Of a DNA stretch of 64,000 nucleotides, positions 2,415-11,895 are shown piece after piece; the stretch's first letter is position 1, and each line of letters starts with the position of its first letter. Below the pieces are notes generated by a model that worked only from the letters and a program-made list of their open reading frames with translations, was not told the origin of the DNA and searched no databases. Origin of the DNA: Mangrovibacterium diazotrophicum (lineage in GTDB: Bacteria; Bacteroidota; Bacteroidia; Bacteroidales; Prolixibacteraceae); assembly GCF_003610535.1 (NCBI RefSeq), contig NZ_RAPN01000001.1, positions 2,095,320 to 2,159,319 of the forward strand. The letters are read 5' to 3'. The translations under genes were made by a program, and so were the position numbers.

Positions 2415-3647
2415 ATGGAAGATACTTTACAAGGCCTACAAATAGGTATAGACAACATGTGGTTGCTGATTGCGGCATTCATGGTAATGTTCATGCAACC
2501 TGGTTTTGCGATGGTAGAGGCTGGTTTTACCCGCTCTAAGAACACCGCAAACATCTTAATGAAAAACATGATGGACTTCTGTATTGGTTCATTGTTGTAT
2601 TGGGCAATTGGTTTCACCCTGATGTATGGTGATTCAATTGGCGGAATCATTGGTACTCCGGATTTGTTCTTCATCAGCGAAGGTTTCGGAGACAACTACT
2701 CTGATTATGCTGACCTGTTCTTCCAAACTGTGTTTGCTGCAACTGCTGCAACAATTGTTTCGGGAGCTATGGCAGAACGTACAGAGTTCATTTCATACCT
2801 TATTTTCTCAATCTTCATCACGTTGTTCGTGTACCCAATTTCAGGTCACTGGACATGGGGTGGTGGCTGGTTGAGCGAGCTTGGCTTCCACGACTTCGCC
2901 GGTTCATCAATCGTACACTCTTGTGGTGGATGGCTTGGTTTGGCTGGTGCTGCGATCATCGGACCTCGTATCGGAAAATACAAGAAAGACGGAACTCCAA
3001 ACGCGATTCCTGGTCACAACCTGGCATTAGGTGCCTTGGGTGTGTTCATCCTGTGGTTCGGATGGTTCGGATTTAACCCTGGTTCTCAGTTGGCTGCTGC
3101 TGGTACTGACAACGCTGTTGCTATTGGTCACATCGCTGTTACTACTAACCTGGCTGCTGCTGCCGGAGCCGTTACTGCAATGATCGTTGCTTGGGTTCGT
3201 TACAAACGTCCTACTTTGTCACTGACATTGAACGGTGCATTGGCTGGCTTGGTTGCCATTACCGCTGGTTGTGATGCTGTTGACCCGATCGGTGCCGTAT
3301 TCATTGGTATCATCGCTGGTTTCGCATTGCCATTTGCTGTTGAATTCTTCGATAAAGTATTGAAAATCGACGACCCTGTAGGTGCTGTATCAGTACACGG
3401 TGTTTGTGGTGCTATCGGTACTTTACTGGTTGGTGTATTCTCAACTTCAGAAGGTCTGGCATACGGTCACGGTGTTCACGCACTGGGAATCCAGGCAATT
3501 GGCGTATTAACATTCTTCGTTTGGGCATTCGGTACAGGTGTTATCCTCTTCACAATTTTGAAGAAAATCGGTATCCTGCGCGTTTCAGCTCGCATCGAAG
3601 AAGAAGGATTGGATATTTACGAGCATGGAGAAAGTGCCTACAATTAA
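2415..3647 (+). CDS. amt: Ammonium transporter (Amt/MEP/Rh family)
   Basis: The protein has 410 residues with about eleven hydrophobic helices. It carries the family signature beginning DFAGSSIVHSCGG near residues 160-172; this holds the first pore histidine. The second appears in VGAVSVHGVCG, about 150 residues later. These are the twin histidines that conduct ammonium in AmtB. It forms a trimeric channel in the inner membrane and takes up ammonium under nitrogen limitation. There is no cleavable signal peptide before the first helix, unlike many proteobacterial AmtB proteins. It lies directly after the P-II gene, its expected inhibitor. Two tandem hairpins follow the stop codon. Confidence 0.95.
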   Translation: MEDTLQGLQIGIDNMWLLIAAFMVMFMQPGFAMVEAGFTRSKNTANILMKNMMDFCIGSLLYWAIGFTLMYGDSIGGIIGTPDLFFISEGFGDNYSDYADLFFQTVFAATAATIVSGAMAERTEFISYLIFSIFITLFVYPISGHWTWGGGWLSELGFHDFAGSSIVHSCGGWLGLAGAAIIGPRIGKYKKDGTPNAIPGHNLALGALGVFILWFGWFGFNPGSQLAAAGTDNAVAIGHIAVTTNLAAAAGAVTAMIVAWVRYKRPTLSLTLNGALAGLVAITAGCDAVDPIGAVFIGIIAGFALPFAVEFFDKVLKIDDPVGAVSVHGVCGAIGTLLVGVFSTSEGLAYGHGVHALGIQAIGVLTFFVWAFGTGVILFTILKKIGILRVSARIEEEGLDIYEHGESAYN

Positions 3648-5040: not shown

Positions 5041-5337
5041 ATGAGCTATTCCGTATTTACAGATGAACAACAACAAGCAGCCCGGTTTGCCAAGGCAATG
5101 GGACACCCGGTGCGCATGTATGTATTGGAATTGCTCAATAAACAAAGCTGTTGTTACAGTGGCGACTTGTCGGACATTCTGCCAATTGCCAAATCGACGC
5201 TCTCGCAACACCTGAAAGAACTGAAAGACGCAGGACTGATCCAGGGTGAAATAGAAGCGCCCAAAGTGAAGTATTGCATCAACAAAGAAAACTGGGCTAA
5301 AGCTCAGCAGTTATTCAAAAATTTTTTGGACTACTAA
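5041..5337 (+). CDS. arsR: ArsR-family winged-helix repressor, first copy
   Basis: The protein has 98 residues from the ATG at 5041, chosen because an earlier in-frame TTG would place the start upstream of the promoter and operator. The fold is an ArsR/SmtB winged helix: a helical start (AMGHPVRMYVLELL), a recognition helix near residues 46-62 (AKSTLSQHLKELKDAGL) and a wing ending in KVKYCI. Cysteines are C37, C38 and C79. C37-C38 sit before the recognition helix and could bind arsenite with C79 or with the partner subunit; the classic CVC of enterobacterial ArsR is absent. It likely represses itself and the genes that follow through the two identical dyads. It is distinct from the second ArsR at 10047. 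Confidence 0.88.
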   Translation: MSYSVFTDEQQQAARFAKAMGHPVRMYVLELLNKQSCCYSGDLSDILPIAKSTLSQHLKELKDAGLIQGEIEAPKVKYCINKENWAKAQQLFKNFLDY

Positions 5338-5355
5338 AAAAATTTTAACCTACTT

Positions 5356-5373
5356 GTTCGTATTTCTGCGAAC
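5356..5373 (+). promoter_or_regulatory. ArsR operator candidate 2 (GTTCG-N8-CGAAC)
   Basis: The same dyad as at 5008-5025 lies in the 57-bp gap between arsR and the thioredoxin-like gene. The 5-bp arms and 8-bp spacer are unchanged and the flanking TTGTTCGTA is shared. This suggests that the downstream genes have a promoter of their own under the same repressor. Confidence 0.65.
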
Positions 5374-5394
5374 AACGAATAAAAACCAAAGATC

Positions 5395-5628
5395 ATGGAA
5401 ATCAAAGTACTTGGAACCGGCTGCAAAAAATGTAAAACGCTGGAAGAAATCACCAAACAAGCAGTCATTGAAGTCGGCATAGACGCGAAAGTCGTTAAAG
5501 TTGAAGACATGCTCGAGATTATGAAATTGGGCGTCCTGACAACACCGGCACTGGTGATCGACGGCAAGGTTGTACTGAAAGGACGAGTTCCTTCAATTAT
5601 GGAAGTGAAAGAACTAATCACAAAATAA
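5395..5628 (+). CDS. arsE: Small thioredoxin/glutaredoxin-like protein (ArsE-like)
   Basis: The protein has 77 residues and is a complete minimal thioredoxin fold of the redox-active disulfide protein 2/TM0996 type. The redox motif is C10-K-K-C13, and the cis-proline is in the TTPALVIDG stretch. It has no signal peptide, so it acts in the cytoplasm. It sits between an ArsR repressor and arsF/arsG-like genes; the order thioredoxin, ArsF, ArsG is that of the arsEFG cluster described for reduction and export of nitro- and amino-aromatic arsenicals in Shewanella. A general role in passing electrons to the membrane protein ArsG, as thioredoxin does for DsbD/CcdA, is also reasonable. The symbol rests on gene order and fold. 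Confidence 0.72.
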   Translation: MEIKVLGTGCKKCKTLEEITKQAVIEVGIDAKVVKVEDMLEIMKLGVLTTPALVIDGKVVLKGRVPSIMEVKELITK

Positions 5629-5635
5629 ACCGACC

Positions 5636-6073
5636 ATGAAAAAGACCTTCATCACTCTTGCAATCATTTTTATCGCTCAGTACGTTAGTTACGCACAATG
5701 TTGCGATAAGACATCCGAAACAAAATCAGCGACAAAAACATGTTGCTCTAGCGACTCAGTCGCAACCGAAGCGGCCGTTACAACCTACTATTTTCACACA
5801 ACGCGCCGATGCGAGACCTGTATTGCCGTTGAAGCCGTCAGCAAAGAAGCTATTCAGGAATACACCAAACTGAAAGTGCCGTTCACCTCAATCAATATTG
5901 AAGACGAAAGCCAGAAAGCGTTAATTGAAAAGTACAAGGCTAGCGGCCCAACTTTAGTAATTGTAGGTAACGGAAAGACTGTCGACCTTACAACTGTCGC
6001 ATTTATGAATGCCGGCACCAATCCGGAAAAACTAAAAGCAAAGATTAAAGAAACGATTGATTCCATGCTGTAA
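5636..6073 (+). CDS. arsF: ArsF-like periplasmic thioredoxin-fold protein
   Basis: The protein has 145 residues. A Sec signal peptide (1-20, ending VSYA) is followed by a cysteine-rich linker (C22-C23, C36-C37) and a thioredoxin-like domain whose motif is C59-E-T-C62, with a proline in GPTLVIVG near 106. This layout fits the family annotated as nitrophenyl compound nitroreductase subunit ArsF. It begins 7 bp after arsE and its stop codon abuts the arsG start. The two adjacent Cys pairs in the linker could bind As(III) or another soft metal, which is an inference from composition. A periplasmic thiol-disulfide role fed by ArsG is the simplest reading. Confidence 0.72.
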   Translation: MKKTFITLAIIFIAQYVSYAQCCDKTSETKSATKTCCSSDSVATEAAVTTYYFHTTRRCETCIAVEAVSKEAIQEYTKLKVPFTSINIEDESQKALIEKYKASGPTLVIVGNGKTVDLTTVAFMNAGTNPEKLKAKIKETIDSML

Positions 6074-6772
6074 ATGGAAACGCTGCAAAACATACTCGAG
6101 AATTCGCAAATCCACCTGTTATCGGCATTTATCTTGGGGCTCATGACGGCTATCAGCCCATGTCCGTTAGCGACCAACATTACGGCAATCGGCTTTATCA
6201 GCAAAGACATCAAAAGCCGGAAACGGGTATTGTTTAACGGAATGACCTATACCGTTGGCAGAGCGGTTTCGTACTCTACAATCGGCTTGCTCTTTTTCTT
6301 TGGAGCCAACCAATTTAAACTTTCCGGTTTTTTGCAGCAATGGGGCGAAAAGCTACTGAGCCCGCTTTTAATTGTCATCGGTCTGTTTATGCTTGGCGTG
6401 TTCTCCATCACGATTCCCGGCGTGAACAAACTCACAGAGAAAGTCGAATCGCAGGCACAAAAAGGTTATTGGGGAGCTTTCCTGCTGGGCCTTGTATTTG
6501 CACTGGCTTTTTGTCCCTACAGCGGCGTGCTGTATTTTGGCATGCTCATCCCAATGACGATCAGCAGCCCGCAAGGCCTTTTTCTACCCATGATTTTTGC
6601 CCTGGCAACCGGTATTCCAGTTATCTTATTCTCATGGATCATCGCCTTCAGCATGAATTCGATCGGAAAAATCTACGACCGAGTGAAGCTCGTCGAACAG
6701 TGGTTCCGCAAAACAGTCGCCTTCGTTTTTATTGCCGTCGGTATTTACTATTTCGTTTCAATTTATCTTTAA
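6074..6772 (+). CDS. arsG: ArsG-like membrane protein (CcdA/DsbD transmembrane family)
   Basis: The protein has 232 residues and about six membrane helices. Two helices carry the buried cysteines of the DsbD/CcdA transmembrane domain: C30 (ISPCPLATN) and C147 (AFCPYSG). CcdA-type proteins carry electrons from cytoplasmic thioredoxin to periplasmic thiol proteins; the ArsG branch is annotated as an efflux permease for aromatic arsenicals. Its flanks (a cytoplasmic thioredoxin upstream and a periplasmic CxxC protein just before it) match both ideas: electrons could pass from ArsE through ArsG to ArsF. The start codon follows directly on the arsF stop, implying translational coupling. Confidence 0.78.
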   Translation: METLQNILENSQIHLLSAFILGLMTAISPCPLATNITAIGFISKDIKSRKRVLFNGMTYTVGRAVSYSTIGLLFFFGANQFKLSGFLQQWGEKLLSPLLIVIGLFMLGVFSITIPGVNKLTEKVESQAQKGYWGAFLLGLVFALAFCPYSGVLYFGMLIPMTISSPQGLFLPMIFALATGIPVILFSWIIAFSMNSIGKIYDRVKLVEQWFRKTVAFVFIAVGIYYFVSIYL

Positions 6773-6782
6773 AATTCAGTCG

Positions 6783-7826
6783 ATGAATATTAAACAACTC
6801 AGTCACACCGAAAATACAAACAATTGGCTCATACCAATCTTACTGCTGCCGGTATGGCTGTTGCTATATTTCAACTTGCAGCCAATCGCCGACTTCCTGA
6901 TTGATCGACTTTTCCAGATGAATCCGGGGACGCACCTGACCGAGTCAATCCGCTTTTTCGTGTTTGAGGTGCCGAAAGTAATGTTGTTGTTGGTGCTCAT
7001 CATTTTTATCGTTGGTGTTGTTCGAAGCTATTTTTCGCCTGAAAAGACACGAAAATTACTGGAAGGAAAATCGCTTTTCACCGGCAATATCATGGCGGCT
7101 GCATTGGGGATCGTTACCCCATTCTGTTCGTGTTCGGCCATTCCGCTGTTCCTCGGGTTTGTAGAAGCAGGTATTCCTATCGGCGTCACCTTTTCATTTC
7201 TGATTGCCGCTCCTTTGGTAAACGAAGTAGCCTTGGTTTTACTAATCGGGCTATTTGGCTGGAAAGTAGCGCTAATCTATGTTTCAACAGGTTTGCTCAT
7301 CGCCATTTTTTCGGGCTGGATTATTGGTAAACTGAAGCTGGAAAAATATGTGGAAGAATGGGTATTCCAGGTAAAAACCAACCGCGAAGACTCGGGAAAC
7401 GAACGAATTCCCTTCTCCGAACGCATTAAAACCGGCATTGAAACGGTCAAAGAAATTCTTGGAAAAATCTGGATATACATCCTCATCGGTATTGCCGTGG
7501 GCGCCGGAGCACACGGTTATGTACCCGAAGATTTGATGGGCTCCATCCTTGGAAAAGGAAACTGGTACAGTGTTCCTTTAGCAATCCTTGTTGGCGTCCC
7601 GATGTACTCAAACGCTGCAGGAATCATCCCCATTGTCAGTGTGCTCATCGAAAAAGGCGTTTCGCTCGGAACGGCACTCGCCTTCATGATGTCGGTTATT
7701 GCGCTTTCGCTGCCCGAAATCATTATCCTGAAAAAAGTACTGAAATGGCAATTAATTCTGACCTTTGTCGGTATCGTTGCCACCGGCATTTTAATAGTCG
7801 GATTCCTCTTCAATTTGTTGATTTGA
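6783..7826 (+). CDS. arsP: ArsP-like permease (DUF318/YraQ family)
   Basis: The protein has 347 residues from ATG 6783, chosen because upstream in-frame starts run into arsG. It has about eight membrane helices. The first half carries the family hallmark TPFCSCSAIP with C115 and C117, and a related proline-rich motif (GVPMYSNAAG) occurs in the second half, so the protein is a two-repeat transporter. ArsP members export trivalent organoarsenicals such as methylarsenite through membrane cysteines. Position after an ArsR-controlled arsEFG-like set supports an organoarsenic role. Other DUF318 permeases have unknown substrates, so the substrate is inferred. Confidence 0.75.
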   Translation: MNIKQLSHTENTNNWLIPILLLPVWLLLYFNLQPIADFLIDRLFQMNPGTHLTESIRFFVFEVPKVMLLLVLIIFIVGVVRSYFSPEKTRKLLEGKSLFTGNIMAAALGIVTPFCSCSAIPLFLGFVEAGIPIGVTFSFLIAAPLVNEVALVLLIGLFGWKVALIYVSTGLLIAIFSGWIIGKLKLEKYVEEWVFQVKTNREDSGNERIPFSERIKTGIETVKEILGKIWIYILIGIAVGAGAHGYVPEDLMGSILGKGNWYSVPLAILVGVPMYSNAAGIIPIVSVLIEKGVSLGTALAFMMSVIALSLPEIIILKKVLKWQLILTFVGIVATGILIVGFLFNLLI

Positions 7827-7877: not shown

Positions 7878-8651
7878 ATGAAATCCGTATCAATGGGCTT
7901 TATCGGTGCCGGAAGGATAACCCGGATTTTTCTCCAGGCATTCAGCAACCGATCAATCAGTCTAAAGAACATCACCGTTTGCGACACCAGCGAATTGGTG
8001 CTGCATGAACTTCAAAACCAGTTTCCGGAGATTTGCGTAACCAGGCACCCACAAGACTGCACCAAACAGGATATTATTTTCCTTGCACTTCATCCGCCTC
8101 ATGTCATGGGCGCTTTGGAATCGATTAGAATGATCGTTAATACCAGCAAATGTATCGTGTCGCTGGCCCCGAAAATCAGTATGGCAAAGATGTCAGAACT
8201 CCTTTCAACCCTCAACTTGGCACGAATGATCCCGAACGCAACCTCGTTTATCAACAGTGGCTTCAACCCTATTTGCTTTCACCCCGATTTCGAGGAGACT
8301 AAAAAGGAAGAACTGTTGGATTTATTCTCCGCTCTGGGCAAGACCTTCGAAACCGACGAGCAAAAACTAGAAAGCTACGCCCTGGTTTCGGCCATGCTTC
8401 CAACTTATTTTTGGTTTCAATGGAACGAGCTACAAGTCATTGCCCAGCAATTGGGGCTCAGTGAAGATGAAACAAACCGAGCACTTCATGAAACAATTGC
8501 TGCAGCCAACGACCTGTATTTTGATTCAGGGCTGACCAGCAAAGAAGTCATCGATTTAATACCGGTGAAACCGATTGCTGAAAACGAGGATTACATCAAA
8601 AACTGTCTGCGCGAAAAAATAATCGCTCTCTTCGAGAAGATCAAAGCATAA
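7878..8651 (+). CDS. ProC-like NAD(P)-binding protein, divergent from pyrroline-5-carboxylate reductase
   Basis: The protein has 257 residues. An N-terminal Rossmann motif (GFIGAGRITRIF, residues 7-18) is followed by a helical domain resembling ProC dimerisation helices (LPTYFWFQWNELQVIAQQLG). ProC enzymes normally close with an SPGGTT-type motif that builds the substrate pocket; here the matching stretch reads IPVKPIAE, and the GSGPA loop reads AMLPT. The protein therefore probably does not reduce pyrroline-5-carboxylate. It lies 51 bp after the permease, before the terminator, so it is likely the last gene of the ars unit. Its substrate is unknown. A reductase acting on an arsenical or a detoxification product is possible but unsupported beyond position. 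Confidence 0.65.
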   Translation: MKSVSMGFIGAGRITRIFLQAFSNRSISLKNITVCDTSELVLHELQNQFPEICVTRHPQDCTKQDIIFLALHPPHVMGALESIRMIVNTSKCIVSLAPKISMAKMSELLSTLNLARMIPNATSFINSGFNPICFHPDFEETKKEELLDLFSALGKTFETDEQKLESYALVSAMLPTYFWFQWNELQVIAQQLGLSEDETNRALHETIAAANDLYFDSGLTSKEVIDLIPVKPIAENEDYIKNCLREKIIALFEKIKA

Positions 8652-8720: not shown

Positions 8721-9290
8721 TTACTTCTTTGCAACCAGTGGTTTTCCGCTTTTCAGAATCTCGCGACCAGCCAGGTCATTCAGAATGGCAGCTGCCATCA
8801 TATACCAGGCCGATAAAGCACATACGATCAACACAACCGCAGCAACGGTATTCATTACCGGAAAGCCAAAATGGCCCAGATCAAGCAAAATAAATCCAGC
8901 CAGCAGTGTTGTGAAAGTCACAAACATGGCTGTGTGGATAAAGAATGATCCAACCCAGAAAATCGCCGTAATCAGCGTCCAGGCAACCAGGTAAAAACCA
9001 ACATCGCTATGTGTTGAAGGGTAAACATTCAAATGATTCAGAATCCAGATAATTCCCAAACCAATCCAGAATGAGCCATAAGCAGAGAAAGCAGCAAAAC
9101 CAAAGTTATTGCCCATTTTGTGTTCCAAAAATCCGGCAATCAACTGTGCTGTGCCACCAAAAATAATTCCCATTGCCAAAATAGGACCAAGACCTACCCA
9201 GCCCAAATTGTGGAATTGTAATAACAGGGTTGTCAAACCGAAACCTCCGAGTCCAACAACTGCTGGATTACCTAACTTAGTGTTTTGCAT
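8721..9290 (-). CDS. satP: Acetate/succinate uptake transporter (SatP/YaaH, GPR1/FUN34 family)
   Basis: The protein has 189 residues and six membrane helices. It opens with the family motif NPAVVGLGGFGLTTLLL (8-24) and contains the AFSAYGSFWIGLG stretch, both diagnostic for AceTr transporters. These are small hexameric channels or proton-coupled carriers for acetate and other short monocarboxylates in the inner membrane. It has its own good promoter on the minus strand and is convergent with the ars genes, so it is probably not part of arsenic resistance. It separates the two ars clusters. Confidence 0.9.
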   Translation of the reverse strand: MQNTKLGNPAVVGLGGFGLTTLLLQFHNLGWVGLGPILAMGIIFGGTAQLIAGFLEHKMGNNFGFAAFSAYGSFWIGLGIIWILNHLNVYPSTHSDVGFYLVAWTLITAIFWVGSFFIHTAMFVTFTTLLAGFILLDLGHFGFPVMNTVAAVVLIVCALSAWYMMAAAILNDLAGREILKSGKPLVAKK

Positions 9291-9350: not shown

Positions 9351-9545
9351 CGGGTAAGCAAAATATTCGTTGATTCGAAAGTCAATTTAGTTTCATTATA
9401 AAGTAAAAAATCAATAGACTACAAAACACAACCAAACCTGACCTATTTGTTAACTTAAACCCCACTAATCAATCATTACTCTATTTATTCGGCCAGCGAC
9501 GAAGAAATCTGTCTATATTCGGATAAAAATCAAAAATCCATCACC

Positions 9546-9944
9546 ATGACAGAAGCAGACATCAAGGTAATCCAAAAATCATATACCGAGATTAAAAATA
9601 CCTTACCCCGACTGGGAAAATACTTTTACAACCGCGCGAACGACATCGGTTCCGACTTAGATCCGCTTTTCGCGGAGGACAGAGCAAATCACGGTGCTGC
9701 ATTTGCCGCTATTTTCGCTAAAGCAGTCGATTCGCTTGAGAATCCGGAAGCGATGCTCCCAGAAATTGAAAGAATGGAAGCCAAACTGAAATACTTCAAT
9801 TTTAAAGCTGATGCGCTGAACACGATCGGTGTTATTTTTATTGATACGCTGTCGTTCGGTTTCGGAAATAACTTTACTCAAGACATCATCGACCCTTGGG
9901 TGAAGGCCTACAAAACATACGCTGCGATGTTCTTCACCAAATAA
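9546..9944 (+). CDS. Single-domain globin-fold protein lacking the proximal histidine
   Basis: The protein has 132 residues. It aligns without gaps from about residue 39 onward to bacterial single-domain haemoglobins: LDPLFAEDRANHGAAF, then LENPEAMLPEIERM, then FTQDIIDPWVKAYKTYAAMF near the end. In these globins the F8 proximal His is in an ARRH/AVKH motif; the aligned residue here is Leu81 (in EAKLKYF). The only histidine in the whole protein is His49, which falls at the distal E7 position (Gln53 in Vitreoscilla haemoglobin). It may be a haem-free globin fold, as in some stress-sensor domains, or may bind haem in another way. It stands alone, between satP and the second arsR; function unknown. 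Confidence 0.72.
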   Translation: MTEADIKVIQKSYTEIKNTLPRLGKYFYNRANDIGSDLDPLFAEDRANHGAAFAAIFAKAVDSLENPEAMLPEIERMEAKLKYFNFKADALNTIGVIFIDTLSFGFGNNFTQDIIDPWVKAYKTYAAMFFTK

Positions 9945-9986: not shown

Positions 9987-10006
9987 ATGACGCATTTATA
10001 CGTCCA
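9987..10006 (+). promoter_or_regulatory. Operator candidate for the second ArsR (ATGACG-N8-CGTCCA)
   Basis: An imperfect copy of the dyad at 10015-10034, with the same 8-bp spacer. The two dyad centres are 28 bp apart. Confidence 0.5.
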
Positions 10007-10014
10007 ATACTTTT

Positions 10015-10034
10015 ATGACGTATTTTTGCGTCAT
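10015..10034 (+). promoter_or_regulatory. Operator candidate for the second ArsR (ATGACG-N8-CGTCAT) with embedded -7 box
   Basis: A perfect 6-bp inverted repeat with an 8-bp spacer. The spacer itself reads TATTTTTG, a match to the -7 box, so repressor binding would mask the promoter. The start codon follows 13 bp later. Confidence 0.65.
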
Positions 10035-10046
10035 TATTATTTGATC

Positions 10047-10382
10047 ATGACATCACCCAAACTGGAATTATTCGACGAAGAGCTGCAGACTGCTGCAGGC
10101 TACTTTAAAGCACTCGCCCACCCTGCCCGACTGGCTATTTTGAAATACCTGGCCGAGTCGAAAGTGTGTATTTCCGGCGATATTTCCAATGAACTCCCAC
10201 TCAGTCGCACCACGGTCAACCAACATTTGGCCGAGCTAAAAAACATGGGCCTGATAAAAGGAACAATCGATGGTGTGAAAGTAAACTACTGCCTCAATCC
10301 GCAGAAAATAGAAGAACTCAAAACCGTCATGAACGACTTTCTTTCCGGAATTGAATTGCCAAAGAATTTCTCGTGCAAATAA
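10047..10382 (+). CDS. arsR: ArsR-family winged-helix repressor, second copy
   Basis: The protein has 111 residues from ATG 10047, chosen because the earlier in-frame ATG at 9987 lies within the operator region. It has a winged-helix fold: AHPARLAILKYLAE, recognition helix near residues 52-68 (LSRTTVNQHLAELKNMG) and wing KVNYCL. Cysteines are C41, C82 and C110. C41 and C82 align with C38 and C79 of the first ArsR, so these two are probably the shared arsenite ligands; the third could be C110 near the C terminus. It is followed by arsC and acr3 and probably controls them. Its operator words differ from those of the first ArsR, so the two circuits are likely separate. Confidence 0.88.
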   Translation: MTSPKLELFDEELQTAAGYFKALAHPARLAILKYLAESKVCISGDISNELPLSRTTVNQHLAELKNMGLIKGTIDGVKVNYCLNPQKIEELKTVMNDFLSGIELPKNFSCK

Positions 10383-10436: not shown

Positions 10437-10862
10437 ATGAAAGTTTTAATTCTGTGTACCGGCAATAGCTGCCGCAGCCAAATGGCTCATGGTTTCCTGC
10501 AGTCGTTCGATCCGAACATCACTGTTTGTTCTGCCGGAACTGAAGCCTCAGGAAAATTGAACACCAAAGCTGTTCAGGTGATGAAAGAAGCCGGAATCGA
10601 CATCAGTGGACATACTTCTGATTCTGTATCGAAATACCTGAACGACGAATGGGATTATGTGATTACCGTTTGCGGCGGAGCCAATGAAAGCTGCCCGGCC
10701 TTCATCGGTAAAGTTAAACACCGTCTGCACATTGGCTTCGACGATCCTTCGCACGCTGTTGGTACCGACGAATTTATCATGAGCGAATTTTACCGCGTGC
10801 GCGACGAAATTAAAGCAGGCTTTTACGATTTCTATTTGAAAAACATCAAGAATGAGCAGTAA
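10437..10862 (+). CDS. arsC: Arsenate reductase, thioredoxin-coupled low-molecular-weight phosphatase type
   Basis: The protein has 141 residues. The phosphate-loop is C7-TGNS-C12-R13 (C-x5-R), the relay cysteines are C79 and C86 in CGGANESC, and the general-acid Asp is in FDDPSHAVG (102-103). This is the full three-cysteine set of pI258-type ArsC enzymes, which reduce arsenate to arsenite using thioredoxin. The product is exported by the ACR3 carrier encoded next, whose start overlaps this gene by 11 nt. It is cytoplasmic. It lies 54 bp after the second arsR. Confidence 0.93.
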
Positions 10863-11895
10863 CAAGCGACTTTCTTTTCTAGATCGTTACCTCACGTTTT
10901 GGATCTTGACAACCATGCTCGCCGGCGTGGTCATCGGTTACCTTTCACCAGAGATCAGCAACTTTTGGAACAGTTTCCAAAGTGGTTCTACCAATGTGCC
11001 ACTGGCTATCGGTTTGATCCTGATGATGTACCCGCCATTGGCCAAGGTTCGCTACGAGGAATTGGGACGTGTATTCCGAAACGTGAAACTGCTGGGAATA
11101 TCGCTGGTGCAAAACTGGGTGATCGGGCCGCTACTGATGTTTGCGCTCGCCGTTCTTTTTCTGCGTGATTACCCTGAATACATGGCCGGAGTGATCCTGA
11201 TTGGACTGGCGCGTTGCATTGCCATGGTGATTGTTTGGAACGACCTCGCTGGCGGAAACCGCGAATACGCAGCCGGATTGGTGGCTTTCAACTCGATCTT
11301 CCAAATCCTGTTTTTCTCGGTATATGCGTGGGTATTTTTGGGAATCCTGCCCGACCTGCTTGGCATGCAAACCTTCCAGGTTAACATTACCATCGGTCAA
11401 ATTGCAGAGTCGGTGTTGATTTACCTCGGCATTCCGTTTGCCGCCGGTTTCCTCACCCGGTTCAGCCTGATCCGCATCAAAGGAGAAGAGTGGTACAAAG
11501 AGAAATTTATCCCAAAGATTAGCCCAATTACCCTGATTGCGCTACTATTCACCATCTTTGTGATGTTCTCCCTGAAAGGCGAATACATTGTGAAAATCCC
11601 GATGGATGTGGTGCGCATCGCTATTCCGCTGGTGATTTACTTCGTTATCATGTTCGTGGTTTCTTTCTTTATGGGTAAGAATTCGGGCGCCGACTACGAG
11701 AAAACAGCGACGATCTCGTTCACTGCTGCCTCCAATAACTTCGAGCTGGCTATCGCCGTGGCAGTTGCCGTATTCGGCATCAACTCTGGTGAAGCTTTTG
11801 CTGCAGTCATTGGGCCACTGGTAGAAGTTCCGGTCTTAATCTCGCTGGTCAACCTGGCCTTCTGGTTTAAGAAAAGATACTTTGCGACCGCATAG
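10852..11895 (+). CDS. acr3: ACR3-family arsenite efflux transporter
   Basis: The protein has 347 residues and ten membrane helices. It holds the conserved membrane cysteine C122 in [13 protein letters not shown] and the glutamate of the NNFE motif (about residue 298), both needed for transport in characterised Acr3 proteins. It exports arsenite from the cytoplasm in exchange for protons. The start codon lies inside arsC (11-nt overlap), so the two are translationally coupled. A strong terminator follows at 11915. Confidence 0.94.

Follow-up and report, generated by a model that had tools for sequence, protein, structure and literature searches.

The locus considered here raises the question of what becomes of a globin once its proximal histidine, at position F8, has been lost. 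The window, that is, the whole analysed stretch of 64,000 nucleotides from Mangrovibacterium diazotrophicum, carries an open reading frame at 9546-9944 on the forward strand, which encodes a protein of 132 amino acids from ATG to TAA. An earlier note on this DNA had described the product as a globin with a histidine at the distal position E7 and a leucine at F8, and had offered two readings: either haem is not bound, or it is bound through the distal histidine in reversed geometry. The features of the locus are as follows.

5041..5337, + strand: ArsR/SmtB-family regulator of an upstream arsenic-type module (family matches)
5636..6073, + strand: ArsF-family protein (NF040494 above cut-off; no Pfam match)
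6074..6772, + strand: DsbD_TM-type membrane protein (domain match)
6783..7826, + strand: ArsP_1 permease (PF03773; two NCBIfam matches below cut-off)
7878..8651, + strand: pyrroline-5-carboxylate-reductase-like (P5CR-like) protein (match below the model cut-off)
8721..9290, - strand: acetate uptake transporter, divergent to the globin (family matches)
9514..9522, + strand: tentatively promoter-like TATATTCGG (-7 type), a partly conserved stretch before the globin start in 4/4 loci
9546..9944, + strand: globin-family protein, F8 = Leu81, E7 = His49 (sequence matches and alignments)
9987..10006, no strand: first palindrome of the globin-arsR gap, putative ArsR operator, imperfect (0-5 mismatches to an 18-base consensus)
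10015..10034, no strand: second palindrome of the gap, putative ArsR operator (0-1 mismatches, 4/4 loci)
10047..10382, + strand: ArsR/SmtB-family regulator (family matches)
10437..10862, + strand: ArsC-type arsenate reductase (LMWPc fold; best NCBIfam model arsC_pI258, below cut-off)
10852..11895, + strand: ACR3 arsenite efflux transporter (above cut-off)

Assignment and alignment of the globin

Judged by its sequence matches, the open reading frame encodes a single-domain globin that belongs with HGbRL, HGbI and the flavohaemoglobins. The NCBIfam model for the NO-inducible flavohaemoprotein (PRK13289) matches it at E 1.1e-10, far under the full-length cut-off of that model. Among solved structures the single sequence matches 3wfw best (E 2e-9), which is the HGbRL globin domain of Methylacidiphilum infernorum; the E. 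coli flavohaemoprotein and Vitreoscilla haemoglobin rank next. A profile of the window protein and its three orthologues matches 3wfw at E 6.6e-13 over residues 1-129, the E. coli flavohaemoprotein at E 6.5e-11 and 1vhb at E 7.3e-7. In a profile-profile comparison with 21 His-bearing single-domain globins of Bacteroidota, E 6.4e-22 was reached over 129 columns without a gap. The match to 3wfw and this one both span the whole domain, as expected for a single-domain 3/3 bacterial globin, and the CD1 phenylalanine (Phe42) of such globins is present in 4/4 orthologues. In Pfam, globin is the sole match above chance for the window protein; PF00042 gives E 3.7e-4 and 21.4 bits, just under the 22-bit cut-off, which one orthologue exceeds (28.7 bits) and the other two fall short of (19.6 and 18.1 bits), so that the cut-off is reached by one protein in four. 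The assignment to the globin family made in the earlier note was thus borne out.

The alignment with 3wfw is free of gaps across residues 1-128 with the single sequence, and across 1-129 with the four-member profile, which gives HGbRL and the window protein a common residue numbering. In the available text of PMC4476040, HGbRL is described with Tyr28 at B10, Gln49 at E7, Lys52 at E10 and Ala78 at F5. With this numbering and the shared register, His49 of the window protein is placed at E7 and Leu81 at F8, where HGbRL has His81. The positions given in the earlier note are therefore upheld, and a residue count agrees that His49 is the single histidine of the protein. The match described there as ungapped is so for globins of the HGbRL type; Vitreoscilla haemoglobin requires a gap of three residues. 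A misplaced register was considered and ruled out, since the two gap-free alignments match the published numbering. The only other histidine among the four proteins is His63 of Mangrovibacterium marinum, which lies far from the F helix and cannot be a misaligned F8 residue.

The note had also proposed a structure-based alignment; the placement of E7 and F8 was obtained through the published HGbRL numbering, and the predicted structures were poor. Two AlphaFold runs on three sequences each gave mean pLDDT values of 54.1 and 48.9, and in these low-confidence models (pLDDT about 50) the helix is broken near residues 62-67, the feature of comparison being the E-F fusion of the HGbRL type. A Foldseek search with the first model returned no match at E up to 0.001. 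Its best E was 9.8e-3, the best 50 of 713 matches (E up to 10) were all globins, headed by HGbI, and the query-normalised TM was 0.33-0.50 among the matches listed. This lends weak support to the predicted globin fold, and neither model was used to infer anything about the pocket.

Loss of the proximal histidine in the genus

Orthologues were found in 4/4 genomes of the genus that were searched and in 0/37 other relatives. These are the window protein and its counterparts in M. marinum DSM 28823 (G001), in genome G002 and in a Sunxiuqinia MAG (G003). A profile search of 140 genomes of the family gave six matches, namely the same four orthologues and two partial ones (E 0.008 and 0.010) that sit in frames unlike globins. 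With profile A1, 12/395 genomes of the class were matched at E up to 0.001; with profile A2, 2/295 genomes of the order were matched at E up to 0.001 and 20/395 genomes of the phylum at E up to 1e-8, the own genome being included each time. In five scans of viral contigs and in a phage collection, no relatives of the window globin were detected. Among plasmids, 21 records match, all with less than 60% identity; identities are 25-28% for the ten listed, four of which are annotated as globin or flavohaemoprotein. Within the own genome, searches with the family profiles gave one match. PF00042 gave none there and so missed the weakly matching window gene itself; its empty result is thus no evidence that globins are absent. 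Two truncated haemoglobins (PF01152) are encoded elsewhere in the same genome, at C3:291099-291446 (L088) and C1:524297-524620 (L089).

In the window protein, M. marinum, the Sunxiuqinia MAG and G002, F8 is Leu, Leu, Ile and Leu, and E7 is His, His, Tyr and Asn, respectively. The orthologues of the Sunxiuqinia MAG and G002 contain no histidine at all, and the four proteins share no conserved histidine. Thus, the proximal histidine expected of a haem haemoglobin is missing from 4/4 genus proteins, and its loss is fixed in the genus. Among 36 distinct globins, 30 carry His at F8, the four of the genus carry Leu or Ile, and two from other Bacteroidota carry Tyr; the histidine is kept in all 21 reference single-domain globins and in 9/9 flavohaemoglobin rows. 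The survey of homologues for Leu81 that had been suggested sets Leu, Leu, Ile and Leu in the genus against His in 30/32 other distinct globins. This set was gathered with profiles of the window family and its relatives and is a partial survey; matches under 115 residues, two L048 rows and repeats of counted rows were left out, and the label of flavohaemoglobin was given by frame length. L036 and L043 were counted as single-domain globins and group with the flavohaemoglobins in the tree, and L036 and L020 are near-copies.

In the phylogenetic tree, the four genus proteins group together (100/100); the stem of their clade measures 2.13 changes per column and its inner branches about 0.09-0.45. 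The tree is midpoint-rooted and does not settle the position of this clade among the single-domain globins. The simplest reading is that the proximal histidine was lost secondarily in the common ancestor of the genus; it is based on the histidine that all the references carry at F8 and that is usual in all other globins.

Some further globins of Bacteroidota may be recorded here. A single-domain globin at L051:8470-8889 (+), also found at L018 (genome G472, same class), scores 34.7 bits with Pfam Globin and has His at E7 and Tyr at F8. A second globin with these two residues, at L052:8371-8847 (-) (genome G1053), stands in tandem with a normal globin at 7939-8346; it has Leu at both B10 and CD1, no Pfam match and a very long branch, and a third globin lies in L052 at 2973-3410. 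At L034:1492-2838 (-) (genome G511), a single frame fuses three domains (Pfam): a 2Fe-2S ferredoxin, a nucleotide cyclase and, at the C-terminus, a globin that has His at F8. Judged by eye, L045 (genome G1102) has a similar frame on the + strand from base 397. At L022:1985-3385 (+) (genome G258), a globin is followed by repeated PAS domains, and a second single-domain globin precedes it.

The presumed former haem pocket

The residues that line the haem pocket of HGbRL are listed in the available text of PMC4476040. At these positions the genus proteins retain Phe27, Tyr28 (Phe in M. marinum), Phe42 and Val/Ile94; that Tyr28 and Phe42 are largely kept speaks against a haem-free reading. The changes with respect to HGbRL are Leu31 to Ala/Ile, Lys52 to Ala/Gly, Leu53 to Phe, Leu98 to Phe and His81 to Leu/Ile. 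Position 91 is Leu in the genus and Tyr or Phe in the 21 references. The pocket would thus be almost wholly non-polar, its polar and iron-binding residues having been lost. It was expected that bulky residues might fill it, and the summed side-chain volumes do not support this idea. Over nine pocket positions the genus mean is 1462, which falls between 1427 for 9 flavohaemoglobins and 1543 for the 21 single-domain globins that carry the histidine. A ligand of the size of haem could therefore still fit.

In HGbRL, Arg80 and Tyr84 hold a haem propionate, according to the available text of PMC4476040. The genus proteins retain Lys80 at F7 (4/4) and Tyr or Phe at 84, and Lys80 and Tyr83 are invariant in 4/4 orthologues. 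Lys80 and Tyr/Phe84 would be compatible with a pocket that takes an acidic hydrophobic ligand, and they do not amount to proof. Lys or Arg at F7 is common throughout the group (15/21 single-domain references, 9/9 flavohaemoglobins), so that Lys80 says little in favour of a new ligand.

On the present evidence it is proposed, with a probability of roughly 0.6, that the protein is a secondarily haem-free, free-standing globin, soluble and put to a new use in binding or regulation by way of its pocket or its surface. Its ancestor would have been a single-domain globin of the HGbRL/HGbI kind with Gln at E7 and His at F8, and the proximal histidine would have been lost before the four species of the genus split. 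The fold would have been retained, and the pocket would have become non-polar through Leu/Ile at F8, Ala/Gly at E10, Phe at both 53 and 98, and Leu at 91, with Lys80 and Tyr/Phe84 staying at the positions that face the propionate in HGbRL. From there, two options may be envisaged: the empty pocket could accommodate a hydrophobic molecule whose acid group would lie close to Lys80/Tyr84, or the protein could associate with a partner, as the haem-free globin domain of RsbR does within its multi-protein complex. A hydrophobic ligand or a partner protein is probably what such a globin binds.

The arsenic island

The gene lies directly upstream of arsR-arsC-acr3 in 4/4 loci of the genus. The earlier note had described it as standing by itself, with an acetate transporter on one side and an arsenic cluster on the other, which is correct locally; a second arsenic-type module at 5041-7826 (ArsR/SmtB, ArsF, DsbD_TM, ArsP_1) puts the globin within an arsenic island. 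G002 shares the gene order of the window from the ArsF-like gene through acr3. The M. marinum locus has neither the P5CR-like gene nor the acetate transporter gene, and its globin comes directly after the permease; the contig of the Sunxiuqinia MAG stops just upstream of the globin.

Between globin and arsR, two palindromes like ATGACGTATTTTTACGTC recur in 4/4 genus loci. By position and symmetry they are putative ArsR operators. The operator pattern was derived from the window's own region, which makes the chance expectation optimistic; recurrence in four loci is therefore the better argument. For arsR, the start at 10047 is preferred because the alternative at 9987 overlaps the first palindrome and because 10047 fits the relatives. 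No such palindrome turned up in the 250 bases before the globin (164 in the MAG), where the best candidates have 7-8 mismatches of 18. The operator-like palindromes make co-transcription doubtful, and their arrangement suggests that arsR begins a regulated transcript of its own, with the globin probably outside it. The second palindrome also overlaps a promoter-like TATTTTTG element; both this element and TATATTCGG are presumed to be promoter-like from their similarity to the promoter consensus.

A direct role in arsenic or organoarsenical resistance, or in its regulation, would account for this constant place upstream of arsR-arsC-acr3 and within the larger island. It is nevertheless an unlikely explanation, as the palindromes and the separate arsR start intervene and the globin has no palindrome before it. 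The conserved cysteine that arsenite binding would call for is absent (3/4 orthologues are free of cysteine, and the fourth has a single non-conserved one), and a gene order shared by four close relatives may be explained by descent alone. Moreover, relatives of ArsC were found in 40/61 genomes searched, and none of the ArsC-bearing genomes outside the genus yielded the globin, whether in the fetched loci or in profile searches; among 30 ArsC loci of 41 places, judged by eye, the two genes are neighbours only in the four loci of the genus. A functional tie between globin and arsenic is conceivable; a part in the response to arsenic or redox stress is doubtful. More specific, and rather improbable, is that the globin, once its proximal histidine was gone, was converted to bind something other than haem, such as a fatty acid or an iron-free porphyrin, with the acid group of this ligand at the old propionate site, in the service of the arsenic or redox-stress island. 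On that reading, the two globins of other Bacteroidota with His at E7 and Tyr at F8 would suggest that conversions of this sort have occurred more than once.

Less probable modes of haem binding, and selection

Haem or another porphyrin might also be bound with no histidine ligand, either through conserved Lys and Tyr residues (Lys80, Tyr83, Tyr28) or with no ligand from the protein. The invariance of Lys80 and Tyr83 and the unfilled pocket agree with this, and in the available text of PMC4476040 HGbRL has Lys52 at E10 as sixth ligand. The lysine of HGbRL, however, adds to His F8 and does not replace it; the corresponding position is Ala or Gly in the genus, and Tyr28 gives way to Phe in M. 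marinum. Such binding is accordingly regarded as quite improbable.

Still less can be said for haem held from the distal side through His49. E7 is indeed His in the window and M. marinum proteins, and two other Bacteroidota globins combine His at E7 with Tyr at F8, of which the one at L051/L018 may exemplify in nature the exchange of ligands so imagined. In the other two orthologues, E7 is Tyr or Asn and no histidine is present anywhere in the protein, so that a reversed site on His49 cannot be a conserved function. As a property of the family it is ruled out, and for the window protein it is very improbable.

The gene is under purifying selection in the pair of orthologues for which this can be measured. 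Between the window and M. marinum, the NG86 method gave dN 0.187, dS 1.76 and dN/dS of about 0.11, and YN00 gave dN 0.195, dS 1.15 and dN/dS of about 0.17, this being the one pair of six that yields a finite dS. A functionless, decaying relic could be argued from the lost key ligand, from the restriction to one genus and from an evolution faster than that of the neighbouring ArsC (56-69% against 96-97% identity between orthologues), and it is hardly credible, because frames intact in 4/4 species, 52 columns invariant among the four orthologues and the low dN/dS of that pair rule out a pseudogene and make decay unlikely.

Of the two readings first offered, then, reversed binding fails for the family, and the absence of bound haem gains support by inference from Leu or Ile at F8 in 4/4 proteins together with purifying selection. 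On their sequences, the genus proteins likely do not ligate haem.

Relation to known globins

Among known proteins, HGbRL (3wfw/3wfx) and HGbI (3s1i) of M. infernorum provide the closest comparison, with HGbRL as the best solved relative, and Phe27, Tyr28 and Phe42 are common to HGbRL and the window globin. This group lacks helix D in the available text of PMC4476040. Both proteins bind haem with His at F8 and Gln at E7, whereas the window family has Leu or Ile at F8 and a variable E7; HGbRL also carries a Roadblock domain, and the window globin has no second domain. The 'swapped sites' of HGbRL refer, in that text, to a domain-swapped dimer and not to a swap of iron ligands. Vitreoscilla haemoglobin and the flavohaemoglobins belong to the same sequence superfamily; unlike the window globin, the flavohaemoglobins keep His at F8 (9/9 rows) and possess a reductase module.

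The N-terminal domain of RsbR from Bacillus subtilis has a globin fold with Ala74 at F8 and no haem, as the available text of PMC4476040 relates. The replacement of the F8 histidine within a globin fold is the likeness to the window family. In RsbR, however, the globin domain lacks helices C and D and is fused to a STAS domain within the stressosome (same text), and the window globin stands alone; Pfam finds no C-terminal STAS domain in its 132 residues. An RsbR chain is also absent from the 52 PDB sequence matches of the orthologue profile (E up to 1). By analogy, the window globin perhaps works like RsbR, and no membership in that family is claimed.

Globin sensors without haem have been reviewed (PMC11617747, as far as its text is available). 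The pXO1-118/pXO2-61 proteins, the N-domain of MabR, the phycobiliproteins and the photoglobins are all haem-free globin folds, and some are described in the accessible literature as stand-alone cytoplasmic proteins. The MabR domain has no sequence similarity to solved globins, according to the available text of the MabR paper; in contrast, the sequence of the window protein clearly shows its kinship with haem-binding single-domain globins. Phycobiliproteins and photoglobins attach bilin at CXRD or CXQD motifs (PMC10151467, available text), which are absent from the four orthologues.

Thus, RsbR and the other sensors indicate that the globin fold can persist without haem, and since free-standing examples exist, being haem-free and stand-alone is in itself no novelty for a globin. 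What appears to be new, on sequence grounds, is a haem-free member so near to the haem single-domain globins, present throughout a genus and at a fixed genomic place. No description of the window protein or of a globin in an ars cluster was met with in the titles and abstract openings among the literature matches listed. Globins without the F8 histidine can escape by design: a widely cited globin survey demanded His at F8 in its alignments (PMC1457004, available text), and Pfam Globin puts three of the four genus proteins just below its cut-off. The haem-free globin folds in the surveyed papers, as far as their text was accessible, are mostly sensor domains or far-diverged families. The secondarily haem-free globin proposed here aligns without gaps with haem globins, so that the route from haem to non-haem would be traceable and testable residue by residue.
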